Below, piece by piece: positions 48,035 through 64,000 of a DNA stretch of 64,000 nucleotides. Position 1 is the first letter of the stretch. Each line of letters opens with the position of its first letter. This DNA is from Thalassovita gelatinovora (lineage in GTDB: Bacteria; Pseudomonadota; Alphaproteobacteria; Rhodobacterales; Rhodobacteraceae). The stretch lies in assembly GCF_001458355.1 (NCBI RefSeq), contig NZ_CYSA01000016.1, positions 62,001 to 126,000 of the forward strand, given 5' to 3'. Made by a program: the position numbers and the translations under genes. The notes beneath the pieces are model-generated. The model saw only the letters and a program-made list of their open reading frames with translations, did not search any database and had not been told where the DNA came from.

Positions 48035-49063
48035 ATGAAACGCCTGCCTAAACTCTTCTGCGCTGCAACTGTTGCGCTCTCTTCCGTCGTGGCCACCGCG
48101 GCCATTGCAAAAGACAAACTCGACATCCAAAGCGCGTGGCCTCTGAACATGGCCGCAAGCGGCGCAAACGCAGAATATCTTGGCAAAGCGTTAAACGCCG
48201 CCTCAGGCGGCGAACTCGACGCAACCGTATATGGCGCGGGCAAACTTGTGCCATCCCTGCAAATCTTTGACGCTGTTCAACAGGGCACTCTGGACGCAGG
48301 CATTACCTCGCCGCTCTATGTCGCTGGACGCTTTCCCGCGGTGCAACTCTTTGGCGGCATTCCTTTTGGTCCAGATGCCATTGAACACACGGCATGGATT
48401 TACAACGGTGGCGGGCGCGAAATCTGGGAAGAAATCTACGCAGCCCAAGGCGTCAAGACGATTCCTTGTGGTCTAATGGATGCCGAAGCCGGCGGTTGGT
48501 ATAATTTTGAAATTAACTCCGTCGACGATCTCAAAGGCAAAAAAATCCGCTTTGCAGGCCTGGCAGGCGAAGCACTGGCCGAACTCGGGGCGTCCATCGT
48601 TCTTTTGCCGTCGAGTGAAATTTACCCTTCACTGGAGAAAGGCATCATTGATGGCACCGAACTCTCCTTGCCTGCAATCGACATTCTCCTCGGTTTCCAA
48701 CAAGTCGCAAAATACTACTACCTGCCCGGTTGGCACCAACCCGCCGCGATGAACGAGCTGATCATCAACATGGCGAAATGGGACAGCCTGTCTGATGCGA
48801 ACAAAGCCCTGATCGAAGAAAGCTGTAAGGCCGTGAACATGACCTCGATCACCTCGACCGTGCCAATGAATGGCGAAGCGGTGGCACAGTTCAAAGAGGC
48901 CGGCGTCGAACTGCGCAGCTTTACACCGGAAGTCCTCGCGCCAATCGAAGCCGCCTTTGACAAAGTGATCGCGGAACAAGTTAAAAACGATCCCGAATTC
49001 AAACGCGTTTGGGACTCGCTCGAGGCCTACCGCGCGAAAACCGGCCTCGGTCTGAGTGAATAA
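48035..49063 (+). CDS. TRAP transporter solute-binding protein (DctP family, system 1)
   Basis: A 342-residue periplasmic binding protein. The signal peptide covers about residues 1-25 (MKRLPKLFCAATVALSSVVA, cleavage near AIA-KD). The DctP-family core includes DDLKGKKIRFAGLAGEALAELG, and an Arg in this region (KIRFAG) usually binds the ligand carboxylate. It delivers an organic acid to the DctQ/DctM permease encoded next. Its place in the iac block suggests an aromatic or indolic acid, but that is inference. An intrinsic terminator directly follows. Confidence 0.93.
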   Translation: MKRLPKLFCAATVALSSVVATAAIAKDKLDIQSAWPLNMAASGANAEYLGKALNAASGGELDATVYGAGKLVPSLQIFDAVQQGTLDAGITSPLYVAGRFPAVQLFGGIPFGPDAIEHTAWIYNGGGREIWEEIYAAQGVKTIPCGLMDAEAGGWYNFEINSVDDLKGKKIRFAGLAGEALAELGASIVLLPSSEIYPSLEKGIIDGTELSLPAIDILLGFQQVAKYYYLPGWHQPAAMNELIINMAKWDSLSDANKALIEESCKAVNMTSITSTVPMNGEAVAQFKEAGVELRSFTPEVLAPIEAAFDKVIAEQVKNDPEFKRVWDSLEAYRAKTGLGLSE

Positions 49064-49070
49064 AGACTGT

Positions 49071-49103
49071 TGCGCCGGAGCCCCCTCTCCGGCGCACTTT
49101 TTT
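49071..49103 (+). terminator. Intrinsic terminator between the TRAP binding protein and its permeases
   Basis: TGCGCCGGAG and CTCCGGCGCA form a 10-base stem with a CCCCCT loop, followed by a run of six to seven T. Partial read-through would give more binding protein than permease. Confidence 0.92.
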
Positions 49104-49114
49104 AGGACAACCTC

Positions 49115-49633
49115 ATGCAGCTCCTCATCTCTACGATTGACCGTGCGGTCGCCGGCATCGGCAAAACGGGTGCGCTCTTTCTCCCGCTGCTGATGCTGAC
49201 GATCCTGCTCAATGTGATCCTTCGATATGTGTTTCGGATCGGGTCCATTGAGCTTGAAGAATTACAATGGCACCTGAATGCCATTGTTGTCATGAGCAGT
49301 CTCGCCTGGGCCTATCAGTGCAACCGCCATGTGCGGGTGGATGCGTTCCACAGCCATATGTCCGTCCGCGTGAAGGCTGTGGTCGAAATCCTCGGTGTGA
49401 CTTTCCTGTTGTTCCCATTCGTATGGTTGGTGAGCGACAGCGCATGGACCATTTTTGGCTATAGCTGGAAGCTCAAAGAAGGCTCGCCGATGCCATCAGG
49501 ACTGCCCGCCCGTTACATCATCAAATTCGTTATGGCGGCGGGGCTAAGCCTTTTGTTTTTACAAGGCATCTCCGTTCTACTGAAGGCTGTAAAAAGCCTG
49601 CTGCACCCCTCTATCACGACTGAAAAGAGCTAA
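49115..49633 (+). CDS. TRAP transporter small permease (DctQ family, system 1)
   Basis: A 172-residue membrane protein with four hydrophobic helices. The DctQ pattern LLNVILRYVFRIGSIELEEL is near residue 35. It links the large permease to the complex. It lies 12 bases after the terminator and four bases before the large permease gene. Confidence 0.93.
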   Translation: MQLLISTIDRAVAGIGKTGALFLPLLMLTILLNVILRYVFRIGSIELEELQWHLNAIVVMSSLAWAYQCNRHVRVDAFHSHMSVRVKAVVEILGVTFLLFPFVWLVSDSAWTIFGYSWKLKEGSPMPSGLPARYIIKFVMAAGLSLLFLQGISVLLKAVKSLLHPSITTEKS

Positions 49634-49636
49634 GCC

Positions 49637-50965
49637 ATGGATGCGATTTTTGTCTTTCTTCTGGCGGCAAGCTTTCTGATCGTCATGTTCTCTGGCTACC
49701 CCATCGCATTCGTTCTGGGCGGCGTGGCGGTGGCTTTTGCTGCTCTTGGTACCTTGCTGGACAATTTCACCGTGGTCGATGCCGATATGGCCTCGCTCAG
49801 AATGATTGGCTTTGTTGCCAACCGGATTTTCGACAGTCTTTCGTCTTACTCGCTGATCCCTATGTCCATGTTCATCTTCATGGGGATGATGCTGGATAAA
49901 TCCGGCGCGGCCGAACGACTTTTGACCCAAATGCACAAAGTCCTGCGCCCTGTTCCCGGCGGCATGGCTGTCGCGGTCGTGATCATTGGTGTGGTACTGG
50001 CGGCTTCGACCGGCATTATCGGTGCTTCGGTCGTTTTGCTGGCAACCATCGCCATGCCGGCCATGCGCGCGGCGGGCTATGAGGACCGACTGGGTCTTGG
50101 CGTGATTGGTGCGACCGGCTGTCTGGGGATTTTGATCCCGCCTTCGATCATGTTGATCGTCATGGGGGATCAGTTGCAAATCCCCGTGGGGGATCTCTTT
50201 CGCGGCGCTATGGTGCCCGGTCTTTTGTTGGCGCTGTTTTATGTTGGCTATGCGGTGTTCGTTGCTCTGCGCAATCCGTCTGCCGCCCCTGCTCTTGCCT
50301 ATGCAGACCCACGCCCCCTCTCCACTGCGATCAAAGACTTGGTTGGTTCGCTTTTGGGACCGCTTTTGCTGATCATGGCGGTTCTGGGATCCATCATCTT
50401 TGGGATTGCGACCCCGACGGAAGCCTCCGGCATCGGTGCTGCGGGGGCCACTCTCCTTGCCTTTGCCTCAAAACGCCTGACCTGGGACAGTTTCAAAGAG
50501 GTCTGCCATGAAACGGCATTGACCACCGCATTTCTGTTTGGCCTGATTTTCGGTGCCTCGTGCTTTTCGGTGGTTTTGCGGGGGTATGGCGGGGACGAGT
50601 TGATTGAAAGCGCACTCCACGCCTTGCCACTTGGTCCGAACGGTACCCTCGTTTTTATCTTGTTCTTGGTGTTTCTATTGGGGTTCTTCTTGGATTGGAT
50701 GGAAATCATCTTGATCGTAGCGCCACTGGTCTTGCCTGTGCTTTCCGCCCTTGGTCATGAACCGGCTTGGGTCGCGATCCTCATGGCGATTTGTCTACAG
50801 ACATCGTTCCTGACACCGCCTGTGGGGATGGCGCTCTTTTACCTCAAAAACACCGTGGACGATGTGAAAATCACCGACGTTTACCGCTCTGTCCTGCCGT
50901 TTATTGCGATCCAAGTGACAATCTTGATGCTCGCATTTGTGCTCCCCGTTCTTGTTCTCTGGTAA
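49637..50965 (+). CDS. TRAP transporter large permease (DctM family, system 1)
   Basis: A 442-residue, 12-helix permease that carries the sodium-coupled transport step. Family stretches are LGVIGATGCLGILIPPSIML, IGIATPTEASGIGAAGA and LTPPVGMALFYLKN. It completes a full TRAP system. A terminator follows within 25 bases. Confidence 0.94.
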   Translation: MDAIFVFLLAASFLIVMFSGYPIAFVLGGVAVAFAALGTLLDNFTVVDADMASLRMIGFVANRIFDSLSSYSLIPMSMFIFMGMMLDKSGAAERLLTQMHKVLRPVPGGMAVAVVIIGVVLAASTGIIGASVVLLATIAMPAMRAAGYEDRLGLGVIGATGCLGILIPPSIMLIVMGDQLQIPVGDLFRGAMVPGLLLALFYVGYAVFVALRNPSAAPALAYADPRPLSTAIKDLVGSLLGPLLLIMAVLGSIIFGIATPTEASGIGAAGATLLAFASKRLTWDSFKEVCHETALTTAFLFGLIFGASCFSVVLRGYGGDELIESALHALPLGPNGTLVFILFLVFLLGFFLDWMEIILIVAPLVLPVLSALGHEPAWVAILMAICLQTSFLTPPVGMALFYLKNTVDDVKITDVYRSVLPFIAIQVTILMLAFVLPVLVLW

Positions 50966-51019: not shown

Positions 51020-51583
51020 TCAGGGATTCATCAACACTGATTGGGATGGGTAATCAGACGCCCAAGTCGCCGGAAGCGGTGCGATAAAGACATTTTCGGT
51101 TCTATTTTGAATGAACCGCCATTGGCCATCGTCGCATTTGCGAAACTTATTGTAGAGACGCGATGAGCGCAGCATGGCTTTCCCATCAGAAAAGAGCCAC
51201 GGCTGCATATGTACCCAATTCCCTTCAGCGGTCATCGCATCTGGTGCAACGCGGATTTGTTCTGAGGTCAGGTAGTGACAATTCAGGATAAGCTGCGGGT
51301 CTGTTTTGCCACCCCAGAAATTTTGGAAATGCGCTTTGATCGCATCCCATCCTTCAGCGCGGCCAAACTGTCCGTCATAATATTCGCCAACCCCTTCCCA
51401 GACAGCCTCTGGCGCAAAAAGCTCCATGATGCGATCGATCCTGTCGGCATCATCATTTGATCCGAATTCCGGGTTGGGCGTGTCACACAAAAACATGTAG
51501 CGCGCCTGTATCCGGCGCACCTCAGCCTCAGCTTCGAGAACAGCGATTCGTGCTTCAAGAGCTGAAAATTGGTCATCCGTCAT
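51020..51583 (-). CDS. iacI: SnoaL/NTF2-like protein, probable IacI
   Basis: A 187-residue protein with an N-terminal helix (TDDQFSALEARIAVLEAEAE) and a SnoaL/NTF2-like cone fold (ELFAPEAVWEGVGEYYDGQ, LSRL-type strands, WRFIQNRTENVF). The start at 51583 is preferred to one three codons upstream. In iac clusters iacI encodes a small protein of unknown function needed for or associated with indole-3-acetate breakdown. It is divergent from iacH across a region holding the two-dyad operator. Confidence 0.8.
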   Translation of the reverse strand: MTDDQFSALEARIAVLEAEAEVRRIQARYMFLCDTPNPEFGSNDDADRIDRIMELFAPEAVWEGVGEYYDGQFGRAEGWDAIKAHFQNFWGGKTDPQLILNCHYLTSEQIRVAPDAMTAEGNWVHMQPWLFSDGKAMLRSSRLYNKFRKCDDGQWRFIQNRTENVFIAPLPATWASDYPSQSVLMNP

Positions 51584-51656
51584 ATTGTGCATCCTTATCC
51601 TGCGGCATTTTTCATCTTTCCGCTTTAGCCATGCTCAATTCCAAAGTTTATTTCAA

Positions 51657-51709
51657 TATTCACGTGAATAATCTTGACCGAAATCCGACATACGGGAATA
51701 TTACTGTAA
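51657..51709 (+). promoter_or_regulatory. Promoter of the iacH-G operon with two operator dyads
   Basis: The perfect 14-base palindrome TATTCACGTGAATA is at 51657-51670. TTGACC (probable -35) is at 51674-51679, and a second dyad TTAC-T-GTAA at 51701-51709 overlaps the -10 position. The dyad centres are 41.5 bases apart. The same layout with the same distances recurs at 58625-58675. It is a good candidate for the site of the MarR-type repressor encoded at the right edge. Confidence 0.75.
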
Positions 51710-51748
51710 CAAGCGCACAAAAATCGCTCAACAAGCCACAGGGAAAAC

Positions 51749-52909
51749 ATGACTGTAGCCGAACAGAATAACTGCGCATTGGCGCATACTCTCGATATGG
51801 GCGGCGACGGCCTGAGAGTGGCGATCAAAGACTGTATCGACATCAAGGATATGGTCAGCGCCTGTGGGTCTGCCGCACTCATAGACAGTGCGCCAGCGAC
51901 GGAAAACGCCGTGGTCGTTGACAGTGTCTTATCGAATGGCTGCAAGATCATCGGCAAGGCCAACATGCATGAACTGGCCTATGGGATGACCGGTGTGAAC
52001 ACCACGTTCGGCACCCCCGTGAACCCGCATTGGCCCGATCGTATCCCCGGCGGTTCCTCCTCTGGCTCCGCGGTGGCAGTCGCCGCAGGATTATGTGATT
52101 TTGCCATCGGCACCGACACGGGCGGCTCCGTGCGCCAACCCGCGATCTGTTGTGGCGTCTATGGCATCAAACCCACCTTTGGCCGCGTCAGCCGGGACGG
52201 TTGTCACCCCAAAGACAGCTCTTTGGATTGCGTTGGTGTTCTTGCCCGCACTGCCGAAATGCTGGTCAAAGGAATGGAGGCGATTGATCCAACCTTTGAA
52301 CGCCAAACATTGACGAAAGCGCCGCGCCTCGCCCGTGTCAAAAGCAATGTCGAAAAGAAACTGGGCGATGCGCTGGTCTATGCCTTGATGGAAGGCTTGC
52401 CAGATGCCGCCTATGTGAAATTGCCCCATATGGAGGCCGCGTTCGAAGCAGGCATGACGGTGATCGGCGTCGAAGCGGCCGTCGCTTACGGCCCGCTTGT
52501 GGATGCTGGGAAACCCTTGGGCGCGGATATCCGAACCCGTCTGATCAATGCCCGCAAAATCACGGATGAAAGCCTTGGCGCCGCCGAAGACATCCGCACG
52601 ACATTCACCAACGAAGTGGATGCCATATTCGAAGACTATGACGTGTTGGTCACCCCTGCCCTTCCCATCATTCCCCCGACACTGGCCGAGGCCAAAGACC
52701 CCGCAACGGTTTTGCCCCTGACCAAACTGTTGCGCCCCTTCAATCTAAGCGGGCACCCCGCGATCGTCCTGCCGATCCCGGTCGGACCAGATCACCTCCC
52801 CGCAGGTATCCAAATCATCGGGCGCAAAGGCGAGGACGCGTTTCTCTGTGCGATTGCCGTGTGGCTCACCAAGACCCTGACTGCATTCCAACCGGAGGAC
52901 AAATCATGA
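51749..52909 (+). CDS. iacH: Amidase-signature protein, probable IacH
   Basis: A 386-residue amidase-signature enzyme, somewhat shorter than the usual 450-500. The Ser-cisSer-Lys triad is complete: Lys27 (VAIKDCID), a Ser within 103-105 (PGGSSSGS) and Ser127 (TDTGGSVRQP). IacH belongs to the canonical iac set and is predicted to hydrolyse an amide. A ring-opened intermediate or an auxin amide are both possible. It starts the rightward operon, and its stop overlaps iacA (ATGA). Confidence 0.85.
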   Translation: MTVAEQNNCALAHTLDMGGDGLRVAIKDCIDIKDMVSACGSAALIDSAPATENAVVVDSVLSNGCKIIGKANMHELAYGMTGVNTTFGTPVNPHWPDRIPGGSSSGSAVAVAAGLCDFAIGTDTGGSVRQPAICCGVYGIKPTFGRVSRDGCHPKDSSLDCVGVLARTAEMLVKGMEAIDPTFERQTLTKAPRLARVKSNVEKKLGDALVYALMEGLPDAAYVKLPHMEAAFEAGMTVIGVEAAVAYGPLVDAGKPLGADIRTRLINARKITDESLGAAEDIRTTFTNEVDAIFEDYDVLVTPALPIIPPTLAEAKDPATVLPLTKLLRPFNLSGHPAIVLPIPVGPDHLPAGIQIIGRKGEDAFLCAIAVWLTKTLTAFQPEDKS

Positions 52910-54045
52910 CCGCTGATGCAGCGCTGGCTGAACAGCCGCTAACCAAAGACGAGGTACTCGCCAGCATCCGCGCCCGCGCGACCGAATTTCAAAACCTGCG
53001 CCACATTCCGCAAGATGTCGTTGATCAGTTCAAAGCCCTGGGCGTCTACCGGGCCTTTGTACCCGCCCGTTTCGGCGGCGATGAAATAAGCCCCGCCGCG
53101 TTTTGCCGCCTGATCGAAGACATTTCTGCCGCAGATGCATCCGCCGGATGGGTCGCAAGTTTTGGTGTTTCCGCCACATATCTGAGCACCTTGCCAACCG
53201 ACACCTATGCCGAAATTTTCGGCAAGAACCCGGACACGGTGTTCGCAGGCGCCATGTTCCCGCCGCAACCGGCCAAAACCGTTGCCGGTGGCTATGAAGT
53301 CACCGGGCAATGGCCATGGGGGTCTGGCATCATGGGCGCGGATCTGGCAGGCGCCGGCATCAAGGTCGAAGATCAAAACACCAAACTCCCGCTCATTGCG
53401 ATCATGCCAAAGGCAAAGGTCGAGGTTGTCGACACGTGGAAAACCCTTGGCCTGCGTGCCACAGGCTCTCATGACATCAAGGTAGACCGTGTTGTTGTAC
53501 CGCGCGAATGGACCTTTATTCGGGGGTCCAAACCGACGATGGACGATCGTATCTTCCGCTATCCGTCTATGGCACTCGCCTCGCAAGTTTTGGCCGTCGT
53601 CGCCTTGGGCGCGGCACGCGCGGCGCTTGATTTCCTGCACAACAGTGGCTCGCGCCAATCCGTGACCGGCGCACCGAAGCCGGGCGCAAGACCCTATTTG
53701 CAGACCGAATATGCCAAAGCGCGTGGCATGTATTTGGGCGCGCAAGCCCTGTTCTACGACACCTTGGACGAAGCCTACGCGGAACTCGAACACCAAGAGA
53801 CGGTCAGCCGCGACACCCATATTCGCTTGCGCCTTGTCGCCTCAAAAGCCGCAAAAGACGGGGCCGAAGCAGCGCGTATGGCCTTTGCCCTCGGCGGCTC
53901 TGCCGCGATCAACGAAGGCCATCCCCTTGGCCGTTACATGCTTGATGCCGCTGGCGTCGCGCAACACGCCTTCCTCAGCGAAGGCACATGGACCGGTGCA
54001 GGCGCCGCCATGTTCGATGAACCCACCATGCCCGGCTACCCATAA
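52906..54045 (+). CDS. iacA: Flavin-dependent monooxygenase of acyl-CoA dehydrogenase fold, probable IacA
   Basis: A 380-residue protein of the HpaB/DszC-like acyl-CoA dehydrogenase fold, which uses reduced flavin to hydroxylate an aromatic substrate. Typical features are VPARFGGDEISPAAFCRLIEDI, the TWKTLGLRATGSHD segment and the C-terminal helix with LGGSAAINEGHPLGRYMLDA. IacA attacks the indole ring of indole-3-acetate at an early step. Its flavin reductase partner IacG is encoded at 57965. The CCGGAGGAC ribosome-binding site supports the start at 52906. Confidence 0.9.
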   Translation: MTADAALAEQPLTKDEVLASIRARATEFQNLRHIPQDVVDQFKALGVYRAFVPARFGGDEISPAAFCRLIEDISAADASAGWVASFGVSATYLSTLPTDTYAEIFGKNPDTVFAGAMFPPQPAKTVAGGYEVTGQWPWGSGIMGADLAGAGIKVEDQNTKLPLIAIMPKAKVEVVDTWKTLGLRATGSHDIKVDRVVVPREWTFIRGSKPTMDDRIFRYPSMALASQVLAVVALGAARAALDFLHNSGSRQSVTGAPKPGARPYLQTEYAKARGMYLGAQALFYDTLDEAYAELEHQETVSRDTHIRLRLVASKAAKDGAEAARMAFALGGSAAINEGHPLGRYMLDAAGVAQHAFLSEGTWTGAGAAMFDEPTMPGYP

Positions 54046-54056
54046 GGAACATTCCG

Positions 54057-54425
54057 ATGACCGATAAAGCATCCCTGCGCACCTTGCTGTGTTTCAACAA
54101 TCACCCGACTTTCTTCTCTCTTCCCTTCGATCAAATCGGCCCGGTGTGGAAAGCCACCCAAGAACTGATGATGGGGATCGATCAGATGGACGGCGTCCAA
54201 ATCGTCGGCACCTTTGACGACGATCAGACCATGGTTGGGGCCAGCCAGGGTTTTCCCTACACATGGTATATTCTCGCGGACTTCCCGGATCGCGAGGCGG
54301 TTCAGGCCGCTTGCAACCTGCTGCGCACCATCGTCGTGGGCGAAGCCAATGATCGCCTTTGGAAATACATGACGGTTGAGGCCCGCATGGGCCGCGCCCT
54401 CGAAATCCCCACCGAAATTCTTTAA
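54057..54425 (+). CDS. iacB: Small protein of unknown function, probable IacB
   Basis: A 122-residue protein lying between iacA and iacC, as in canonical iac clusters. It has no signal peptide and looks like a ferredoxin-like alpha-beta barrel (VQIVGTFDDDQTMVGASQGF, YTWYILADFPDREAVQAACN). Small barrels of this kind often bind a reactive aromatic intermediate. The assignment rests mainly on position and size. Confidence 0.75.
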   Translation: MTDKASLRTLLCFNNHPTFFSLPFDQIGPVWKATQELMMGIDQMDGVQIVGTFDDDQTMVGASQGFPYTWYILADFPDREAVQAACNLLRTIVVGEANDRLWKYMTVEARMGRALEIPTEIL

Positions 54426-54442
54426 TTTAAGGGAACAGACAC

Positions 54443-55726
54443 ATGTCTCTTGATACGCCAAAATTCAGCGATTTGGACGCGCTCTACGATGTGGAAAACG
54501 CCAAGGTCGCAACTGAAATGTACGAAGATCCAGAACTCTTCAAAGAAGAAATGGATCGGATTTTCAAAAAGACCTGGGTCTGGGTCGCGCATGAAAGCGA
54601 ATTCCCCGACAAAGGCTCTTTCAAACTGTCCCAAGTCGGCCTTGATCCGGTCATTGTGGTGCGTGACCGCAAGGGCAAAATCCACTGTATGGTGAACCGC
54701 TGCCGCCACCGCGCCGCCACTGTATGCGAAGTGAAAAAAGGCAAAACGTCATCGTTCCAGTGCCCCTATCACGGCTGGGGCTACGGGTTGGACGGATCGT
54801 TGCGTGCGGTGCCCTACCCCGAACAATATGGCGATGACTTTGACAAGTCCCAGCATGGATTGTTGAAGCTTCGCACCGAATCCCATGAAGGCATGGTCTT
54901 TGCGACCTTCAACGAAGACGCCGAACCGCTTGTGGATTTCTTGGGGCCTGAAGTTTGCCGCTACATGACCTTGTTCATGAAACAAGGCGGCGGGTTCCCG
55001 GTGAAGGTTCTGGGCGAGCACCAGTTCCAAGTTCCGATGAACTGGAAAGTGCAGCTGGAAAACACCACCGACGCCTACCATTTTCCCATCGTGCATAAAT
55101 CTTTCATGCAAACGCTCGATGAAAAAACCGAAGACCTCTTTGACTTCATGGAAAAAAATGAAGGCTGGGTCGAAGATCTGGGCAACGGACATTCCATATT
55201 GATGATGATGCCGTCACGCGCAGATCTGGATGAGCGTCTCGACGATCCGATCGAACCTCGGTTCGAATGGCTCGCCGAAGAGATCCGCAAAGAAGGCTAT
55301 AGCGAAGAGCAGGTCAAAAAGATCGTGCTCGCCGTGGGTGGACCAGGGTTCAACATGAACCTGTTCCCCAACGTGTCCTTCTCTTTGTCGTTCTTCCGCG
55401 TGTTGACGCCGATTGCCGTGGACAAAACCGATATTCGTCACATGGCATTGGGCATGGATGGTGGACCAGCGATTGCCAACCAAACCCGCCTGCGCCTGCA
55501 TGAGCATTTTCAAGGACCGATGGGCTTTGGCTCGCCGGATGATGCCGAAGTCTGGGAACGGGTGCAACGCGGCACGCGAGGCGGCGAAGAGCTTCCGATC
55601 CTCGTCAATCGCGGCATTGTCGACGAAAAACCCGGCGTGACGGGCCCACGTGGTCATGTGAGTTCCGAAACAGGAATGCGCGCTGCCTATAAAATGTGGA
55701 AGCACATGATGGAAATGGAGGCCTGA
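54443..55726 (+). CDS. iacC: Rieske ring-hydroxylating dioxygenase large subunit, probable IacC
   Basis: A 427-residue oxygenase alpha subunit. The Rieske 2Fe-2S ligands are Cys87, His89, Cys107 and His110 (RCRHRA and QCPYHGW). The mononuclear iron site has Asp210, His213 and His218 in TTDAYHFPIVHKSF. With IacD and the reductase IacF it should convert the oxindole intermediate onward towards catechol. It lies 17 bases after iacB and three bases before iacD. Confidence 0.92.
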   Translation: MSLDTPKFSDLDALYDVENAKVATEMYEDPELFKEEMDRIFKKTWVWVAHESEFPDKGSFKLSQVGLDPVIVVRDRKGKIHCMVNRCRHRAATVCEVKKGKTSSFQCPYHGWGYGLDGSLRAVPYPEQYGDDFDKSQHGLLKLRTESHEGMVFATFNEDAEPLVDFLGPEVCRYMTLFMKQGGGFPVKVLGEHQFQVPMNWKVQLENTTDAYHFPIVHKSFMQTLDEKTEDLFDFMEKNEGWVEDLGNGHSILMMMPSRADLDERLDDPIEPRFEWLAEEIRKEGYSEEQVKKIVLAVGGPGFNMNLFPNVSFSLSFFRVLTPIAVDKTDIRHMALGMDGGPAIANQTRLRLHEHFQGPMGFGSPDDAEVWERVQRGTRGGEELPILVNRGIVDEKPGVTGPRGHVSSETGMRAAYKMWKHMMEMEA

Positions 55727-55729: not shown

Positions 55730-56224
55730 ATGACCGAGATGAGCAAAATCGACACCAAGGCCCTCTTGGCGGATGTGACCGAATTCCTCTGGCAGGAAGC
55801 GGATATCCTTGATCGCAAAGACTATGACGCGTGGATTGATCTGTGGCTGGAAGAAGGTCTTTACATCCTTCCCATCGGCGACGGTGAAGATTACGAAAAC
55901 CAGCTTAACCTATGCCATGACAACGATAAAATGCGCCGCATGCGCGTTGACCGCTTCAAACGTGGCTTCTCGATCTCGTCTGCCCCCGCAGCGGATACCG
56001 TGCGCACAGTCAGCCGGATCGTGATCGAAAGCGCCGAGGGCGATATCATCAAAGTCCGCGCCGCCGAGCATCTGATCGAGAACAAATTCGGGCGTCAGCG
56101 CATGTGGGCCGCGAACCTGTATTACACGCTTCAGAAAACCGAAGACGGCTTCAAACTGGACCGCAAAATCGCAAAAATTCTCAACTCCGACGGGATGCTG
56201 AATTCGTTCAGCTATTTGTTCTAA
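55730..56224 (+). CDS. iacD: Ring-hydroxylating dioxygenase small subunit, probable IacD
   Basis: A 164-residue beta subunit with the NTF2-like cone fold (DVTEFLWQEADILDRKDYDAWIDL near the start, ILNSDGMLNSFSYLF at the end). It is structural in the alpha3beta3 hexamer. It follows iacC by three bases and overlaps iacE by one base (TAATG). Confidence 0.92.
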   Translation: MTEMSKIDTKALLADVTEFLWQEADILDRKDYDAWIDLWLEEGLYILPIGDGEDYENQLNLCHDNDKMRRMRVDRFKRGFSISSAPAADTVRTVSRIVIESAEGDIIKVRAAEHLIENKFGRQRMWAANLYYTLQKTEDGFKLDRKIAKILNSDGMLNSFSYLF

Positions 56225-56996: not shown

Positions 56997-57953
56997 ATGA
57001 CAAACACACAAACATACACGGTTTCCAGCCGTATTGATGACCGTGGCGATATCGCCCGCATCCGTTTTTCCCCTAAAAGCGGCGGTCAAATCATTCCCTT
57101 TACGGCGGGTGCCCATATCGACATCTATCTTCCCGATGTCGATCTTTGGCGGCAATATTCGCTCTGCTCTGACCCTGCCGAAACTGGATTTTACGAAATC
57201 GGCGTTCTCAAAGACCCGAACTCGCGGGGCGGCTCTACGGCGGTGCATCGCCTCGCCACCGAAGGGGCAGAGTTCAAGGTAGAAGGCCCGCGCAATCACT
57301 TTCCGCTTGATGAAACCGCGACGCAAACCGTGCTTTTGGGCGGCGGCATCGGGGTCACTCCGATGATTGCCATGGCCAAGCGCCTTCATGCTTTGGGCAA
57401 AGATTTTGTCCTGCACTATTGTACGCGCTCCGAAGAAGTGACCGCGTTCAAAGACGACCTTGATGGCTCTGACTTTGCCGACAAAATCGTCTATCACTTT
57501 GATGATCAAGATGACAGCCAACGGCTCGACTTGGCCCAGGACCTTCCAGCCCCGGATCCCGACACCCATCTCTATGTTTGCGGCCCGCAAGGGTTCATGG
57601 ATTGGGTCATCGGGGCGGCCGAAGGCGCAGGCCACGTCCCCGCGAACGTACACCGCGAATACTTCTCCGCAGAGGTGGAATTGTCCGGCGACAGTTTTGA
57701 GGTGGAATGTGCCCAAAGCGGCATCACAGTCACCATCGGTCCGAATGACACAATCGCCAAGGCCCTCGCAAAAGAGGGCCTAAAAATTGACGTGAAATGC
57801 GAAGAAGGTGTCTGCGGCACCTGCATCACAGATGTGTTGAGCGGCGAAATCGATCATCGCGATCAGTTCCTCACCGAGGATGAGCGCGAAGACGGCGATC
57901 AACTTTGTGCCTGTTGTTCGCGCGGCAAGGGCAAATTGGTTCTGGATATTTGA
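56997..57953 (+). CDS. iacF: Phthalate-dioxygenase-reductase-type flavo-iron-sulfur protein, probable IacF
   Basis: A 318-residue reductase with three domains in order: a flavin-binding barrel (about 1-105, with RQYSLCSDP), an NAD-binding domain (about 108-220, LLGGGIGVTPMIAM) and a C-terminal plant-type 2Fe-2S domain. The cluster ligands are Cys268, Cys273, Cys276 and a Cys in 304-307 (CEEGVCGTC). It passes electrons from NADH to the Rieske centre of IacC. No separate ferredoxin gene is needed or seen. Confidence 0.93.
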   Translation: MTNTQTYTVSSRIDDRGDIARIRFSPKSGGQIIPFTAGAHIDIYLPDVDLWRQYSLCSDPAETGFYEIGVLKDPNSRGGSTAVHRLATEGAEFKVEGPRNHFPLDETATQTVLLGGGIGVTPMIAMAKRLHALGKDFVLHYCTRSEEVTAFKDDLDGSDFADKIVYHFDDQDDSQRLDLAQDLPAPDPDTHLYVCGPQGFMDWVIGAAEGAGHVPANVHREYFSAEVELSGDSFEVECAQSGITVTIGPNDTIAKALAKEGLKIDVKCEEGVCGTCITDVLSGEIDHRDQFLTEDEREDGDQLCACCSRGKGKLVLDI

Positions 57954-57964
57954 GGAGAACACCG

Positions 57965-58498
57965 ATGGAACTCACTCCGAACCAGATCGCCTTTCGCGAA
58001 GGCATGAGCCGCATGGGGGCTGCCGTCAATCTGATCACCTCTGACGGGATCTCAGGGACACATGGGATTGTGGCCTCTGCGGTTTGTTCGGTGACAGACA
58101 CGCCGCCCACCCTTCTGGTCTGCGTCAACCGCAACGCATTTGTCCATGACAAGTTTCTCGAAAACGGGGTGCTCTGTGTGAATGTCCTAGCCGCCCATCA
58201 CCAAGACCTGTGCCGGGTCTTTGCCCGCTATGTCGAGGGCGTAGACCGCTTTTCCTATGGCGATTGGCTGACCCTCAGCACGGGGTCTCCTGTGCTCAGT
58301 GATGCCAATGTCGCCTTCGATTGTCGGATCGGTTCGGTGTTGGAACAGGGGTCACATTCGGTGATGTTCTGCGAAATCAAAGCCGTTCACTTGCCCGAGA
58401 AACCGGATCGCGGCCTTGTCTATTTCAGTCGCGATTATCACCACTTGGAAACCGGAAAATCACAGGCCGGTTTTCCGCCCACGCCAAAAGAAGCATGA
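57965..58498 (+). CDS. iacG: Flavin reductase domain protein, probable IacG
   Basis: A 177-residue flavin reductase (FMN-binding split barrel) with the segment GTHGIVASAVCSVTDTPPTL, typical of the small component of two-component flavin monooxygenases. It should supply reduced flavin to IacA. It closes the iacHABCDEFG run. A 375-base gap with the second regulated promoter follows. Confidence 0.92.
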   Translation: MELTPNQIAFREGMSRMGAAVNLITSDGISGTHGIVASAVCSVTDTPPTLLVCVNRNAFVHDKFLENGVLCVNVLAAHHQDLCRVFARYVEGVDRFSYGDWLTLSTGSPVLSDANVAFDCRIGSVLEQGSHSVMFCEIKAVHLPEKPDRGLVYFSRDYHHLETGKSQAGFPPTPKEA

Positions 58499-58873
58499 CA
58501 GGGCTGCCGCCCCTCACACCCCTTATCAGATTCAGCTTCAAAATCAGACAGAGCCTATGACAGAGCGCGTGTTTTTTAACCAAATGCGACTGCAACGCGG
58601 TGGAATCGAACTGGATCAGGGAAATTTACGTAAACTTTCTTGACCCAATTCCGACTTGCGGTAGTTTTACCGTAATAAGATCGCGAAGGAATAGGAAAGA
58701 AACCACAAGGCTTGGCACCACAAGAGCTGACCCATCTCACTTGAACACGGGGAAAAAACCAAGCTCAAAATCGGGCAGTCCCCTCGTTCGACCCCTTAGC
58801 CCAACAACCAGATAACAACTTGAAACAGGCACCAGAAAAACGGTGCACCAATGCTGCAACAGGGAAACGCACA
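58499..58873. other. Intergenic region containing the second two-dyad promoter
   Basis: No credible gene is present in these 375 bases. The promoter elements lie at 58625-58675, leaving a leader of about 190 bases before the TRAP binding-protein start. The leader shows no obvious riboswitch or terminator. Confidence 0.55.
58625..58675 (+). promoter_or_regulatory. Promoter of the second TRAP operon with two operator dyads
   Basis: TTTACGTAAA (58625-58634), TTGACC (58640-58645) and TTAC-C-GTAA (58667-58675) repeat the layout at 51657-51709. The distances are the same: 10.5 bases from the first dyad centre to TTGACC, and 41.5 bases between dyad centres. The intervening ATTCCGAC also resembles ATCCGAC there. 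This points to shared control of iacH-G and TRAP system 2. Confidence 0.75.
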
Positions 58874-59887
58874 ATGAAAAAACTCCTCTCAACCGTCGCC
58901 GCGACCATGATTTTGTCCGGCGTGGCCAACGCCGAAACCACTTTGACAGTGGCCAATTGGCTGCCCCCGTCTCACCCATTGGTTTCCGAGGTCATCGTCC
59001 CGATGACGGAACAGATCAAAGAGGCCACAGCAGGCGAAGTGGTCGCAAATATTCTGCCCGCCCCCCTCGGGCCGCCACCCGCGCATTTTGACTTTGCCGT
59101 CAACGGCGTCGCGGACATCACTTTCGGCGTGCAAGGCTACACAGCAGGCCGTTTCAAAACCACAAACATCGCGGAAATCCCGTTTCTAGGCGACAGTGCA
59201 GAGGCAATTTCGGTCGCCTATTGGCGGACCTTTGAGGCTATGCTCAAAGACGCGGGCGAATATGACGATGTCAAAGTTTTGGGGGTCTTCACCCACGGTC
59301 CCGGCGAAATTTTCCTGAAAAAAGGCGACGCGAGTGCGGTTGATCTGTTGGATGGCAAAAAACTGCGTGTCGGCGGGGGCATCGTTCACGAAGTCGCCTC
59401 CACCTTGGGTGCCGTTCCCGTAGAGGGCCCCTCGTCCAAGGCTTATGAACTTCTGAGCCAAGGCGTCGCGGACGGCATTCTCTTCCCCTATGAATCTGTC
59501 AGCTTCTTCAAACTTATCCCGCAGCTCAGCGTCGGCGTTTCCGTGCCAGGCGGCCTTTACAACACATCCTTCTATATCGTGATGAACAAAGCGAAATGGG
59601 ACAGCCTGACGCCCGAACAACAAACTGCGATCGACAGTGTCACCGGCGAAGCGCTGGCCCGCATGGCGGGTCAGATGTGGGATCGCGTAGACGCGGCGGG
59701 ACTTGAAGCGATGGCTGGGCAAACCACCGTCACCCCCGCCACGGAGGAACAGGTCACCGCGTGGACCGAAGCGTTGCAGCCGGTCGTGGACGCAAAACTC
59801 GCCGAGGTTTCCGAAACGGGCGTAGACGGGGCTGCGGCTCTTGCAATGCTCAAAGCTGAAATCGCTGCAGTTGCCGCGGAACAATGA
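58874..59887 (+). CDS. TRAP transporter solute-binding protein (DctP family, system 2)
   Basis: A 337-residue periplasmic binding protein with a signal peptide at about 1-20 (MKKLLSTVAATMILSGVANA, cleavage after NA). DctP-type stretches are FKTTNIAEIPFLGDSAEAIS and DLLDGKKLRVGGGIVHEVA, with the Arg in LRVGGG as the likely carboxylate ligand. It differs clearly from system 1, so the two probably bind different acids. It overlaps its small permease gene by four bases. Confidence 0.93.
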   Translation: MKKLLSTVAATMILSGVANAETTLTVANWLPPSHPLVSEVIVPMTEQIKEATAGEVVANILPAPLGPPPAHFDFAVNGVADITFGVQGYTAGRFKTTNIAEIPFLGDSAEAISVAYWRTFEAMLKDAGEYDDVKVLGVFTHGPGEIFLKKGDASAVDLLDGKKLRVGGGIVHEVASTLGAVPVEGPSSKAYELLSQGVADGILFPYESVSFFKLIPQLSVGVSVPGGLYNTSFYIVMNKAKWDSLTPEQQTAIDSVTGEALARMAGQMWDRVDAAGLEAMAGQTTVTPATEEQVTAWTEALQPVVDAKLAEVSETGVDGAAALAMLKAEIAAVAAEQ

Positions 59888-60414
59888 CCAAGACCATTGA
59901 CACGGGTGTTCGGGAGGGGGGCACAGGCGCCTCTCCCGCGCATCACCTGACGCGGTCTGGAATCTTTCTGGGCAGTATCGGGGGCGTTCTTTTGCTCGCC
60001 ATGATGGGACTTACCGTCTGCGATGTGATCGGGCGCTATCTGTTCAACTCCCCGATCAAAGGCGCGAGTGAATTGACTGAAATCCTGCTATGTGCCGTGA
60101 TTTTTGTTGGACTTGGGGCCGTCTCCTTGGCGGAAGATCACGTGACCGTCGATCTTTTGACCGAAAAGATGCCGCTGGCTGTGCAGCCGTTGCGGCAGGC
60201 CGTCACCGGGGTCTTGAGCGGCGCCATCCTTGTCGTGATCTCATGGCGGCTTTGGATCTATGCGGACCAGATCGGCGGCTATGGCGGCTCGACGACCAAT
60301 CTCAGCATTCCCATCGCGCCTCTCGGCTATTTCTGCGCCATCTGCGCATTTATCGGCGGTGTGATCACCGCTTTTCTGCCCCTCGAACGTTTCATCAAAC
60401 GTTTGAAGCAATAA
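59884..60414 (+). CDS. TRAP transporter small permease (DctQ family, system 2)
   Basis: A 176-residue four-helix membrane protein. The family motif around DVIGRYLFNSPIKGASELTE is present. It begins inside the last codons of the binding-protein gene (ATGA), so no attenuating terminator lies between them, in contrast to system 1. Confidence 0.93.
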   Translation: MTKTIDTGVREGGTGASPAHHLTRSGIFLGSIGGVLLLAMMGLTVCDVIGRYLFNSPIKGASELTEILLCAVIFVGLGAVSLAEDHVTVDLLTEKMPLAVQPLRQAVTGVLSGAILVVISWRLWIYADQIGGYGGSTTNLSIPIAPLGYFCAICAFIGGVITAFLPLERFIKRLKQ

Positions 60415-60426
60415 GGGACAAGACAC

Positions 60427-61707
60427 ATGGAACATTGGCCTATTGGAATGGCTGTTCTGGCCTTTCTGTTGTTCATGGGCATGCCCATTGCCTTTGCTCT
60501 TACAGGCGTCGGCTTGGTCGGCGTGGTGTCCATTATCGGCTGGTCCCCCTCGTTGGCATTGCTTGGATCGGTCTTTTTCGACAACGGGCGCGATTACACA
60601 CTCTCTGTCCTGCCGCTCTTTCTGTTGATGGGGAACTTTGTGGTGCAATCCGGGATCGCAGCAGAGCTTTATGCCTCTGCCTATGCTTGGTTGCGCCATC
60701 GCAAGGGCGGATTGGCGACCGCGACAGTGGTGGCCTGTGGTGCGTTCTCGTCAGTTTGTGGCTCATCGCTTGCAACGGCGGCCACCATGACCAAAATTGC
60801 GCTGCCCTCCATGCGGCGCTATGGCTACCCGGATCAGCTTTCGACCGCATCGATTGCTGCGGGCGGCACGTTGGGTATTTTGATCCCTCCTTCCGTGATC
60901 CTTGTGTTCTATGGCATCCTCACCCAACAAGACATCGGGCGGCTGTTCCTTGCCGGCCTGATCCCCGGCGTGATCGGTATCATCGGTTACTCTATCGCGG
61001 TGCGCTTGTCGCTTAGGTTTCAAGGAATCGATCTGCCGACAGAACCAAAATTGCCGCTCTTGGATCGTATTCGGGCGCTCAAAGGGACGTCGGGCGCCTT
61101 GGCTCTGTTCACCTTTGTCATGGGCGGGATTTACCTTGGTGTCTTTACGCCGACCGAAAGTGCGGGCATGGGCGCAGGCGGGGCCTTTCTTTTGGTGATC
61201 CTGAAACGCCAGTTTTCCATCGAAGCAACGCTGTCCGTGCTGTTCGACACGATGAAAACCACGGCAATGATGTTTTTCATCCTCTTTGGCGCGCTGACCT
61301 TCACCAATTACGTGAACATGTCTGGCATGACCAATGACATTCAGACCCTGATCACCGGACTGACCAGTAGCCCGATGGGGTTCATCCTGATCGTGTTCTG
61401 CATCTACCTCCTGCTCGGTTGTGTCTTGGAAAGCCTGTCGATGATCATGCTCACCGTGCCTGTGTTTTATCCGATCGCGGCCGACCTTGGGATTGATCTG
61501 ATCTGGTTCGGCATCTTTGTCGTGATGGTGACGGAAATATCCTACATTACCCCGCCCGTCGGGATGAATGTTTTTGTCCTGCGCTCTGTGGTGCCGGATG
61601 TCCGGCTCAGCACGATTTTCAAAGGCCTTGTGCCCTTCGTCACGATGGATGTGCTCCGCGTGGGTCTTTTGACGGCAGCACCCGTTCTCGTGCTGATCCT
61701 CACCTAA
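60427..61707 (+). CDS. TRAP transporter large permease (DctM family, system 2)
   Basis: A 426-residue polytopic permease with DctM motifs ASIAAGGTLGILIPPSVIL, GVFTPTESAGMGAGGAF and YITPPVGMNVFVLRS. It completes the second TRAP system. A dehydrogenase-like gene follows 29 bases later on the same strand. Confidence 0.94.
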   Translation: MEHWPIGMAVLAFLLFMGMPIAFALTGVGLVGVVSIIGWSPSLALLGSVFFDNGRDYTLSVLPLFLLMGNFVVQSGIAAELYASAYAWLRHRKGGLATATVVACGAFSSVCGSSLATAATMTKIALPSMRRYGYPDQLSTASIAAGGTLGILIPPSVILVFYGILTQQDIGRLFLAGLIPGVIGIIGYSIAVRLSLRFQGIDLPTEPKLPLLDRIRALKGTSGALALFTFVMGGIYLGVFTPTESAGMGAGGAFLLVILKRQFSIEATLSVLFDTMKTTAMMFFILFGALTFTNYVNMSGMTNDIQTLITGLTSSPMGFILIVFCIYLLLGCVLESLSMIMLTVPVFYPIAADLGIDLIWFGIFVVMVTEISYITPPVGMNVFVLRSVVPDVRLSTIFKGLVPFVTMDVLRVGLLTAAPVLVLILT

Positions 61708-61736: not shown

Positions 61737-62756
61737 ATGACAACCTCTTATAAAATTGGTGTGATCGGTGCCGGCAATATCGGCACCGCTATGGCCGCGC
61801 TGGTGTCGCAATCGGGTGCGGATGTCTGGCTCACAGCGCGCGGTGCGCGGCTGGGTCAAATCACGCAGGACGGCGTCCATTTGGATGATCGGGGCACTGT
61901 AATCTCTGCCCGCCCGAAAACCTGTGACCACCTCAAAGCCCCCATGGACGCGCTGTTTGTCTGTGTGAAATCCCAAAGCCTTGCCTCAGCGCTTCACCTG
62001 AACCGGGCGGCGATCACGCCGGACACATTAGTGATCCCGATGGTGAACGGCTTGCCGTTTTGGTTCTACGCCGATGAGACCGGGCTTGGCGCGGTACCGC
62101 TGCTAGATCCCGACGGCGATTTGGCGCGGATTTTAACCCCGCAACAGGTGCTTGGTGCCGTGCTATTGATGACCGTTCAGATGGATGACGCAGGTCTGGC
62201 AAAATCGTCCAACACCCCGACCCTGAGTCTTGGCGCGGTATGCGAGGGCGTCGATGCCGACAAAGTGGGTCAGTTGATCTCTCTTTTGAACTGCGGCGGA
62301 GTACGGACAGAGTTTGATCGGGATATCCGGCAAAAAGTTCTTGTTAAACTGTTGGCGAATTTCGCAACCAATCCGCTCTCCGCACTGACTGGTGCGATGC
62401 TTGATGAGCTTGGCCAAACCCCCGCCCTTCGCGACATTTCCACAGCGCTTGCGGATGAGTTCCGGGACTGGGCCAGCAGCGAAGGTTATGAGCTTCCGCC
62501 AAATGCGTGGCTCGTGGATTTGTTGATTGATGCAGGGGCTTTCCCGACATCAATGTTACAGGATGCTTTGGCCGGCAAGCCTCTTGAACTTGATGCGATT
62601 TGCCTTGCCCCGATGGAACTCGCCAAGGCGAAAGGCACCCCTATGCCCACCTTGGGCGGGCTTTTGGATCTTCTAAACACGGCCACGTCACTCCCCGCAA
62701 GAAAAGCTCAGGTGCCCGACATGATCCAAACCCTGCGCCTCTCACAAACCGCCTGA
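61737..62756 (+). CDS. Ketopantoate reductase-family (ApbA/PanE-like) dehydrogenase
   Basis: A 339-residue NAD(P)-dependent reductase of the 2-dehydropantoate reductase family. It has the Rossmann motif VIGAGNIGTAMAALV and the C-terminal helical domain (KLLANFATNPLSALTG, where Asn and Ser usually bind substrate). It is cotranscribed with TRAP system 2 and the aldolase, not with pantothenate genes. It more probably reduces a 2-keto acid or oxidises a hydroxy acid from the catabolic route. The exact substrate is unknown. Confidence 0.88.
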   Translation: MTTSYKIGVIGAGNIGTAMAALVSQSGADVWLTARGARLGQITQDGVHLDDRGTVISARPKTCDHLKAPMDALFVCVKSQSLASALHLNRAAITPDTLVIPMVNGLPFWFYADETGLGAVPLLDPDGDLARILTPQQVLGAVLLMTVQMDDAGLAKSSNTPTLSLGAVCEGVDADKVGQLISLLNCGGVRTEFDRDIRQKVLVKLLANFATNPLSALTGAMLDELGQTPALRDISTALADEFRDWASSEGYELPPNAWLVDLLIDAGAFPTSMLQDALAGKPLELDAICLAPMELAKAKGTPMPTLGGLLDLLNTATSLPARKAQVPDMIQTLRLSQTA

Positions 62757-62768: not shown

Positions 62769-63536
62769 ATGAACAGCCAAACGCCCACGATCACCCCACC
62801 GATGGCGGGGATGACCGAAGCCGACCTTCGCGTGCAGCTTGCAGATTTCTACCATCTGGTGAGTTACCTTGGTTGGACAGAATTGATTTTCAACCATATT
62901 TCTGTCCGCCTCCCCGGTGAAGACCATGCCTATCTCGTCAACCCGATGGGATTGCATTATGATGAGGTGACGCCCGAAAATCTTCTGGTTGTCGGGGTGG
63001 ATGGCAAGCTGTTGCGCGACAGTGCCTATAAACCAAATCCGGCGGGGTTTGCCCTTCACGGCGTGATCCATGAACACCGTCCAGATGTTGGCTGTGTCGC
63101 GCATACGCACACGACCCCAATCTCAGCAATGACAATGAAGGGGTTCGACATTGATCATGACAATTTTTATGGCGCACAGCTTTACGGGCGCGTTGCCTAT
63201 CACACATTCGAAGGCATCACGATTTACGATGAAGAACGCGGGCGCATTCTTGAATCCCTGAAGGGCAAACATGTATTGGTGCTGCGCAATCACGGGATTG
63301 CTGTGTGCGAGGCCGATATTCCTCTCACCTTTTTCCTGTTGTGGACCGTACAACGCGCCGCCGAAATTCAATGTGCCGCAAGCGCAATTCCAGGCCCAAA
63401 CAACGCCCTGACCGAAGACATCAAACAGAAATGCGCCGATGACGCACAACGCCTGAAAGACAACGCTTCCTTTGCCACATTGTTGTTTGACGCGATGATC
63501 CGCAAGATGAAGCGCGACCGCCCGGAATTCGCCTGA
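62769..63536 (+). CDS. Class II aldolase/adducin-family protein
   Basis: A 255-residue class II aldolase-fold protein. The zinc ligands are visible: HTHTTPIS (two His) and a third His in LVLRNHGIA. The N-terminal catalytic region has LIFNHISVRLPG. This family includes fuculose-phosphate aldolase, aromatic acid decarboxylases and adducin-like proteins without activity. It follows the dehydrogenase gene by 12 bases and ends the operon. A retro-aldol or decarboxylation step on an auxin-derived acid is a plausible but unproven role. Confidence 0.88.
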   Translation: MNSQTPTITPPMAGMTEADLRVQLADFYHLVSYLGWTELIFNHISVRLPGEDHAYLVNPMGLHYDEVTPENLLVVGVDGKLLRDSAYKPNPAGFALHGVIHEHRPDVGCVAHTHTTPISAMTMKGFDIDHDNFYGAQLYGRVAYHTFEGITIYDEERGRILESLKGKHVLVLRNHGIAVCEADIPLTFFLLWTVQRAAEIQCAASAIPGPNNALTEDIKQKCADDAQRLKDNASFATLLFDAMIRKMKRDRPEFA

Positions 63537-63548
63537 CTGTTGGCTCAG

Positions 63549-63584
63549 ACAAACAGGGCGGCTTTCTCGCGGCCCTGTTTGTCA
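63549..63584 (+). terminator. Stem-loop closing the second TRAP operon
   Basis: GACAAACAGGGC and GCCCTGTTTGTC form a 12-base perfect stem around a 12-base loop, about 12 bases after the aldolase stop. No T-run follows, so it is a transcript-end hairpin rather than a textbook terminator. Confidence 0.65.
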
Positions 63585-63696
63585 TGCCCATCCGGCACAA
63601 TGCTGATCCAGTTTAGCCCCCGTGCAAGACTGCGGCGCCAATTAGCGTCGATGTCGCGGATCGCGACAGCCAAAGACGATTGCGCTATGCGTCGAT

Positions 63697-63764
63697 AAAT
63701 CACGTCACTTTTCACATTCTATTCCATTACAAACCTCACTAAACTTCGCGCGAATACGTGATTT
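63697..63764 (+). promoter_or_regulatory. Possible autoregulatory sites upstream of the MarR gene
   Basis: AAATCACGT (63697-63705) and ACGTGATTT (63756-63764) form a widely spaced inverted pair that shares the TCACGT/ACGTGA half-site with the palindrome at 51657. The second site overlaps the ribosome-binding region. This is consistent with, but does not prove, autoregulation. Confidence 0.4.
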
Positions 63765-63778
63765 GGAGACACCTAGCA

Positions 63779-64000
63779 GTGACAGTGAAGCAGGATAGCC
63801 CTAAAAAATTCAAAGAAAATTGGCCTTTTTTCTGGGTGAGCCAAATCAACGCCGCTTATGCCAATGCCCTTGAGCGGCGGATCAAATCCTATGGCATAGA
63901 TATGCCCCGTTGGCGCGCCATGATGAGCCTTTACGAAGATCAGTACCTTTCCGTTTCCGAGATCGCAGAGTTTTCCGCTCAGAAACTCAACACAACCACG
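63779..64000 (+). CDS. iacR: MarR-family regulator, probable IacR (truncated by window end)
   Basis: The first 74 codons are visible from a GTG at 63779, with GGAG ten bases upstream. The frame is open to the window edge. The sequence NWPFFWVSQINAAYANALER, then GIDMPRWRAMMSLYEDQYLS and VSEIAEFSAQKLNTTT, follows the MarR pattern of a long dimerisation helix leading into the winged HTH. IacR is the MarR repressor of iac genes elsewhere. Its place beside the iac block and the matching palindromes support that assignment. Confidence 0.8.
   Translation, partial: MTVKQDSPKKFKENWPFFWVSQINAAYANALERRIKSYGIDMPRWRAMMSLYEDQYLSVSEIAEFSAQKLNTTT

Follow-up and report, generated by a model that had tools for sequence, protein, structure and literature searches.

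A complete iac locus with TRAP importers, PanE and AldII genes and a shared putative IacR operator in Thalassovita gelatinovora

Described auxin-degrading loci and the locus of T. gelatinovora

In Pseudomonas putida 1290, the iac genes (iacABCDEFGRHI) turn the auxin indole-3-acetic acid (IAA) into catechol, a conversion that is established there (PMC9613470, PMC7225977). Here, we report a related locus in 64,000 nucleotides of Thalassovita gelatinovora (contig NZ_CYSA01000016.1, positions 62,001 to 126,000), a stretch hereafter called the window. It has the ten gene types and an IacR-type MarR regulator in common with P. putida 1290, but differs in gene order, in a divergent iacI, and in having two tripartite ATP-independent periplasmic (TRAP) transporters, a PanE-like oxidoreductase and a class II aldolase family protein (AldII). 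It differs as well in that no catechol ring-cleavage enzyme was identified in its genome.

Closer in gene content is the iac locus of the marine Marinomonas sp. MWYL1/NFXS50, with a full iac set and with iacR adjoining AldII/PanE-type genes, as in the window (PMC11373566). Unlike the window, Marinomonas has a branched-chain-type ABC importer in place of TRAP and a separate alpha-hydroxy-acid oxidising enzyme, and the NFXS50 genome contains catA, catB and catC (PMC11373566). On plasmids of Acinetobacter sp. NCu2D-2 and A. baumannii DS002, the iac order is iacR-HAB-I-CDEFG; PanE and AldII lie a few kb further downstream, with 58% identity for AldII. These plasmid loci differ from the window in carrying an OprD-type porin, an ABC importer, and GMC dehydrogenase and aldehyde dehydrogenase genes, and NCu2D-2 also has catABC adjacent to iac. 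Finally, the iad operon of Variovorax, with IadDE, is another MarR-controlled auxin catabolic system whose uptake relies on a dedicated high-affinity binding protein, IadK2 (PMC10374108). It differs from the window in ABC uptake, another first enzyme, an anthranilate end and an IadR-type MarR.

Judged from the sequence, the window probably contains an IacR-controlled IAA catabolic island, with import by the second TRAP system (TRAP2) and with PanE and AldII as accessories. Gene content, regulator type, a common operator and promoter, and co-occurrence among genomes are the direct observations behind this reading. What is new is the regulon and the unassigned PanE-AldII pair, auxin degradation itself being already known; a variant with a TRAP link, a conserved operator and PanE-AldII has no description in the iac literature examined. 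Auxin, a hormone of plants and algae, is exchanged between marine algae and bacteria, and the roseobacter group is mostly discussed as a producer. The presence, in many genera of this group, of a full degradation regulon that includes a putative high-affinity importer offers a genetic handle on auxin removal.

The features are, in order (coordinates, strand, description):

48035..49063, +, TRAP1 DctP, solute-binding protein of the 2-oxoacid-binding (SmoM/TakP-like) subfamily
49115..49633, +, TRAP1 DctQ, small permease; order conserved in relatives
49637..50965, +, TRAP1 DctM, large permease; order conserved in relatives
51020..51592, -, iacI, SnoaL-like protein (family search), divergent from iacH
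51674..51679, +, -35 box TTGACC of the iacH promoter; TTGAC kept at the same distance from the operator in most relatives
51690..51709, no strand, palindromic putative operator in the iacI/iacH gap, 3 mismatches to TTACGGTAANNTTACCGTAA
51749..52909, +, iacH, amidase (family search)
52906..54045, +, iacA, ACAD-type flavin-dependent monooxygenase; ATGA overlap with iacH
54057..54425, +, iacB, marker protein of iac loci, no Pfam family
54443..55726, +, iacC, Rieske dioxygenase alpha subunit
55730..56224, +, iacD, Rieske dioxygenase beta subunit
56224..56985, +, iacE, short-chain dehydrogenase (SDR); one-base overlap with iacD
56997..57953, +, iacF, PDR-type reductase of the Rieske system (FAD, NAD, 2Fe-2S)
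57965..58498, +, iacG, flavin reductase (family search)
58640..58645, +, -35 box TTGACC of the TRAP2 promoter; distance to the operator identical to that at the iacH promoter
58656..58675, no strand, second copy of the palindromic putative operator, TRAP2 promoter, 2 mismatches
58874..59887, +, TRAP2 DctP, solute-binding protein
59884..60414, +, TRAP2 DctQ, small permease; ATGA overlap with DctP
60427..61707, +, TRAP2 DctM, large permease
61737..62756, +, PanE-like oxidoreductase (ketopantoate reductase family), conserved iac accessory
62769..63536, +, AldII, class II aldolase/adducin family, conserved iac accessory
63779..64000, +, MarR regulator, IacR type, GTG start; cut by the window end, complete at L005:779-1231

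The iac region spans 51020-58498, and inspection of the open reading frames (ORFs) found all of them intact. TRAP1 (48035-50965) precedes it, and TRAP2 (58874-61707), the PanE-like gene, AldII and MarR follow. The ORF coordinates agree with the order given in a preliminary description of this DNA, namely iacI on the opposite strand and then iacHABCDEFG with short junctions; the genes of the plus-strand row overlap or are separated by 17 bases or less. That description also claimed a complete iac-type gene set, and this holds: homologues of iacA, B, C, D, E, F, G, H and I are all co-located, family searches match the expected roles, and IacB is present. Most of the proteins are 42 to 60% identical to those of an Acinetobacter baumannii iac locus (IacA 42%, IacB 51%, IacC 60%, IacE 45%, IacH 47%), with IacG at 23%. 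The gene iacC has no other full-length close copy in the genome. The iac genes, the two TRAP systems and MarR were thus correctly listed before, but the PanE-like and class II aldolase genes had been omitted. On these similarities, we regard the locus as a bona fide, complete iac locus of a Rhodobacteraceae genome.

As for IacB, its AlphaFold model has a ferredoxin-like alpha/beta fold. A fold search with it returned nothing below E 0.001 and a template modelling (TM) score of about 0.5 at best, so the protein can be described as "ferredoxin-like" and no further.

Regulator, shared operator and importers

The MarR gene reported earlier at the window edge is real, and its full-length product of 150 amino acids is intact in the contig. 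Among solved structures it scores 97 bits with 7kua, 88 with 7l19 and 79 with 7l1i, against 36 with the IadR structure 7kfo and 36 or less with IadR structures in general, 3cdh of Ruegeria pomeroyi among them. The first of these, 7kua, is IacR of P. putida, in which Tyr44 lies 2.6 Å from the IAA carboxylate (PMC9613470). The counterpart in the window MarR is Tyr27, invariant in 39/39 iac-linked MarRs; the pairing takes into account an offset of 24 tag residues between structure chain and native numbering, which is our deduction. By these scores, the window MarR belongs to the IacR group and not to the IadR group.

The palindrome was first seen by reading the iacH and TRAP2 promoters side by side. 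Both have the layout TTGACC-N10 followed by the 20-bp palindrome TTACGGTAA-NN-TTACCGTAA. With up to 3 mismatches, it occurs at 2 sites in the 64-kb window, at the iac and TRAP2 promoters, where shuffled sequences give an expectation of 0. The flanking TTGACCNANNTCCGAC likewise has 2 exact sites in the window, both at those promoters (0.08 expected).

Relatives have 32 sites (up to 3 mismatches) at a spacer of 2, compared with 0, 0, 2, 0 and 0 at spacers of 0, 1, 3, 4 and 5, and a shuffle gave no site. The operator stands ahead of iacH in most loci, ahead of TRAP2 in the close relatives of the window and ahead of TRAP1 in L037, L038 and L044, and TTGAC is mostly found just upstream of it at the iac promoter. 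At both promoters of the window it overlaps the -10 region, the position that a repressor would be expected to take; according to a report cited in PMC9613470, IacR repression is known in Enterobacter soli. We infer that IacR binds this palindrome.

Both TRAP sets are complete, with a binding protein, a small and a large permease in one gene row each. The closest solved relatives of TRAP1 DctP are 2hzk (SmoM, 200 bits) and 7ug8 (a "ketoacid-binding protein", 178 bits), and those of TRAP2 DctP are 4p56 (230 bits) and also 4pgn/4pgp (68 bits); likeness to 2hzk SmoM/TakP on the one side and to 4p56 and 4pgn/4pgp on the other is one of overall sequence similarity alone. TakP is presumably a 2-oxoacid binder. 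We take 4p56 to hold mandelate and 4pgn/4pgp to hold indole-3-pyruvate/indole-3-acetate, for which a literature search gave no confirmation. A literature search for a TRAP importer of IAA returned nothing relevant.

We compared 46 alphaproteobacterial iac loci, the window counted in, scoring genes within the fetched flanks. A TRAP2-type system is present in 37/46 and a TRAP1-type system in 14/46. Among Alphaproteobacteria, iac loci are as a rule linked to TRAP systems; the two systems seen earlier are both there and complete, but their description as unusual fails. Other importers at iac, added or substituting, are a tripartite tricarboxylate transporter (L041, L057) and an ABC importer (L032, L059).

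In the proposed mechanism, IacR would sit on the 20-bp palindrome over the -10 regions of the iacH and TRAP2 promoters until relieved by IAA. TRAP2 would import IAA or a close indolic acid, the shared operator being the one line of evidence for this ligand. IacA with IacG, followed by IacE (with IacB), would then convert IAA through 2-oxo-IAA to dioxindole-3-acetate, steps of IacA and IacE that are taken from the literature on other species. Ring opening by IacH, IacI and the Rieske system IacCDF would yield a dihydroxylated aromatic, by analogy catechol. PanE and AldII would feed aryl-2-hydroxy and aryl-2-oxo acids (indole-3-lactate, indole-3-pyruvate) into IAA, and TRAP1, being of the 2-oxoacid-binding type, may bring in such an aryl acid. 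We infer the order of the later Iac steps, the ligands, and the role of PanE and AldII.

PanE, AldII and the fate of the ring

The PanE-like protein matches TIGR00745, the ketopantoate reductase family, at 146.7 bits (cut-off 141.35), and its residues K204, N208, S272 and E284, which we take to be the equivalents of the E. coli PanE active-site residues, are invariant in 21 sequences. AldII matches NF005451 at 240 bits (cut-off 207), and its metal-binding H112, H114 and H175 (His-x-His plus a later His) are invariant in 17 sequences. At the search thresholds used, a close IacA is present in 6/149 genomes of the family, with one further distant match (35%) in G013. PanE and AldII are each found in the same 6 genomes and in 0 of the other 143. 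In Acinetobacter they lie beside iac with an ABC importer, and in Marinomonas a class II aldolase and a 2-dehydropantoate 2-reductase beside iacR are termed genes of unknown function (PMC11373566). This co-occurrence, together with the iac neighbours in Acinetobacter and Marinomonas, argues that PanE and AldII are part of the iac system.

Further neighbourhoods point to a possible chemistry. In Novosphingobium EMRT-2, PanE and AldII are in one row with an aromatic amino acid transaminase, on a plasmid that also carries iac. More distant copies (43% and 32%) are found in Vitreoscilla as AldII-PanE, inside an hpa (homoprotocatechuate) row between HpaH and HpaI. Furthermore, AldII of one Acinetobacter deposit is labelled "Decarboxylase NovR", and NovR, whose substrate is an arylpyruvate, is among the solved relatives of AldII. 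The shared theme is an aryl-acetate pathway, possibly fed by aryl-lactate or aryl-pyruvate, from which we propose a funnel. Tentatively, and on the basis of gene neighbourhoods, PanE may interconvert indole-3-lactate and indole-3-pyruvate, and AldII may help to convert indole-3-pyruvate to IAA. The pair ranges from Alpha- to Gammaproteobacteria and was never assigned, and it makes the entry of other indolic acids testable.

A wider version of this proposal is a little more doubtful. PanE and AldII could form an undescribed indole-3-lactate to indole-3-pyruvate to IAA route (elsewhere, from aryl-lactates and aryl-pyruvates to aryl-acetates), in islands that collect several indolic acids through dedicated importers of the TRAP or ABC type. 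At the same time, another group of alphaproteobacterial iac loci could drain hydroxylated auxins via hydroxyquinol.

Several observations weigh against the regulated island with TRAP2 import and PanE and AldII accessories. The operator is found at the TRAP1 counterparts of three relatives but not at TRAP1 in the window. The link of TRAP2 to iac is not a strict one: two genomes of the family (G046 and G088) have TRAP2 orthologues without a close IacA, and the ligand range of TRAP2 may therefore be wider. The chemistry of PanE and AldII is argued from gene neighbourhoods alone, and the AlphaFold model of AldII is unusable, with a predicted local distance difference test (pLDDT) value of 47. Moreover, the genome has no evident catechol route.

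Some of these points would fit another arrangement, in which the Iac enzymes serve IAA while TRAP2, PanE and AldII form a separate travelling unit for a non-indolic aromatic 2-hydroxy acid or a C4/C5 acid. The TRAP2 orthologues of G046 and G088 lie near trpA/trpB and 2-hydroxyacid dehydrogenase genes, and the position of PanE and AldII relative to iac varies between loci. However, the TRAP2 operator is the same as that of iac and the promoter is nearly so, PanE and AldII accompany a close IacA in 6/6 genomes and are found in 0/143 otherwise, and they lie beside iac in Gammaproteobacteria that have a different importer. We consider a separate unit unlikely.

The TRAP2 orthologues without iac are located at L048:8095-10900 and L049:7384-10230; one adjoins trpB and both are near 2-hydroxyacid dehydrogenase genes. 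Such orthologues were also considered as iad markers, which was rejected, there being no iad-like genes beside them in G046 and G088.

Next, we looked at the end of the pathway. The Iac end product is catechol in Pseudomonas and Paraburkholderia, where the steps from dioxindole-3-acetate to catechol are unknown (PMC7225977, PMC9613470). The preliminary description carried degradation towards catechol over from Pseudomonas/Burkholderia, and this finds no backing here: searches of the genome found no muconolactone isomerase (CatC), and no match to catechol 1,2- or 2,3-dioxygenase passed the curated cut-offs. The best catechol 2,3-dioxygenase match has 209 bits (cut-off 320) and a homoprotocatechuate-type context, and the best CatA-type intradiol match has 149 bits (cut-off 392) and is closest to hydroxyquinol enzymes. 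The absence of catechol ring-cleavage genes makes the final ring opening testable.

The only intradiol dioxygenase of the genome with an N-terminal domain is of the hydroxyquinol type (PnpC 246 bits, catechol dioxygenase 132). It is unlinked to iac and lies on contig C19 (L051:9314-10180), in an aromatic row (L051:4711-10180) with an FAH-family hydrolase, a nitroreductase-like gene, a further TRAP system and GntR. No close maleylacetate reductase was found in the genome.

In other alphaproteobacteria, 13/46 loci have a hydroxyquinol-type dioxygenase beside iac, 9 of these with maleylacetate reductase (L017:2737-4906, L041:203-2181, L057:2666-4596, L058:2911-4837, L060 and others). In Azospirillum, an operator with 4 mismatches lies about 0.4 kb ahead of the maleylacetate reductase gene. 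These neighbours suggest hydroxyquinol chemistry or hydroxylated auxin substrates. If IAA carried a hydroxyl at C5, this group would end up as the third hydroxyl of hydroxyquinol, which makes 5-hydroxy-IAA a candidate substrate of hydroxyquinol-type loci. Literature searches for 5-hydroxy-IAA with iac and for hydroxyquinol with IAA returned nothing relevant.

Could the window locus itself act mainly on a hydroxylated auxin, for instance converting 5-hydroxyindole-3-acetate to hydroxyquinol (1,2,4-trihydroxybenzene) for cleavage by a hydroxyquinol-type dioxygenase? The type of the dioxygenase on C19, the 13/46 loci and the Azospirillum operator speak for it, as does the finding of CatA above cut-off in just 3/35 iac genomes searched. 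Yet the enzyme is unlinked and lacks a close maleylacetate reductase in the same genome, five iac genomes have no full-length intradiol enzyme at all, and iac adjoins catABC in Streptomyces, Acinetobacter and Novosphingobium. The window is also of the PanE/AldII kind, and 0/46 loci combine PanE/AldII with hydroxyquinol genes (0/24 vs 13/22, Fisher p 5e-6, a statistic weakened by kinship of the loci, with about 4 independent contrasts on the tree). Taken together, this makes a hydroxylated main substrate quite improbable for the window. PanE-AldII as a substitute for ring cleavage was also considered and is weakened, as Acinetobacter has both PanE-AldII and catABC and independent contrasts are few.

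Lastly, a pathway of the iad type, running from IAA through isatin to anthranilate as in R. pomeroyi, is hardly conceivable and is rejected by the MarR and IacC comparisons: iad loci are known in the same bacterial group and R. pomeroyi IadR binds IAA (PMC9613470), but IacA, IacB, IacE and IacH are all present, MarR scores 97 bits with IacR but about 35 with IadR structures, 3cdh among these, and IacC, about 60% identical to iac IacC, has 122 bits to IadD (7yls), under many other Rieske enzymes.

Distribution and genomic setting

The genome is 3.9 Mb in size and estimated to be 100% complete. From position 48035 onward, GC content drops from about 61% to 53-56%; it stays at 52-55% up to about contig C16:136,500 and then returns to 59-63%. 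The low-GC segment on which the iac region sits is therefore about 26 kb long. In G076, which belongs to the same genus, there is no close IacA, TRAP2, PanE or AldII, as one would expect if the segment had been acquired. The segment edges showed neither an integrase nor a tRNA.

In a search of bacterial genomes, IacB had 41 relatives, almost all from Rhodobacterales and almost all within complete iac loci. In a tree of IacA+IacB+IacE, alphaproteobacterial loci form one clade (Shimodaira-Hasegawa-like approximate likelihood ratio test, SH-aLRT, 100), with the window locus paired with Rhodalgimonas and with Pacificibacter, Halocynthiibacter and Aliishimia as neighbours. The closest iac locus is that of Rhodalgimonas zhirmunskyi strain 10Alg 79, a strain name that is suggestive only as a hint of algal association.

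Two Pseudooceanicola have reduced loci (L031:8550-15534 and L035:8598-16049) with iacA, B, E, G, MarR, the operator and TRAP2, and L035 additionally keeps iacF. In both, iacC, D, H and I are absent nearby, and a genome search for iacC gives matches of 30% at most. These loci possibly represent an upper pathway ending at dioxindole-3-acetate. In them IacB, a puzzling protein, stays together with the upper steps. This agrees with a role beside IacE and goes against a role only below dioxindole-3-acetate; the former has been argued from P. phytofirmans (compare PMC7225977).

As for the surroundings, the remainder of the low-GC segment (L005:1553-9505) codes for a polyamine-type ABC transporter, a large PAS-rich sensor kinase and a response regulator. 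The next gene product (L005:9610-11358) has numerous GGxGxD-type repeats. On the other side, window positions 42077-44455 code for what appears from its sequence to be a PaaZ-like bifunctional aldehyde dehydrogenase/hydratase, and phenylacetate catabolism genes are therefore probably just upstream of the island.

Recurrent neighbours of iac are genes for amine dehydrogenase, a tyramine oxidase subunit, a class II histone-deacetylase-like protein, GMC dehydrogenase and aldehyde dehydrogenase (examples are L061:362-2535, L058:21341-22480, L059:8446-9567 and L073:6636-9775). It is possible that such amine and alcohol genes feed indolic amines and alcohols into IAA.

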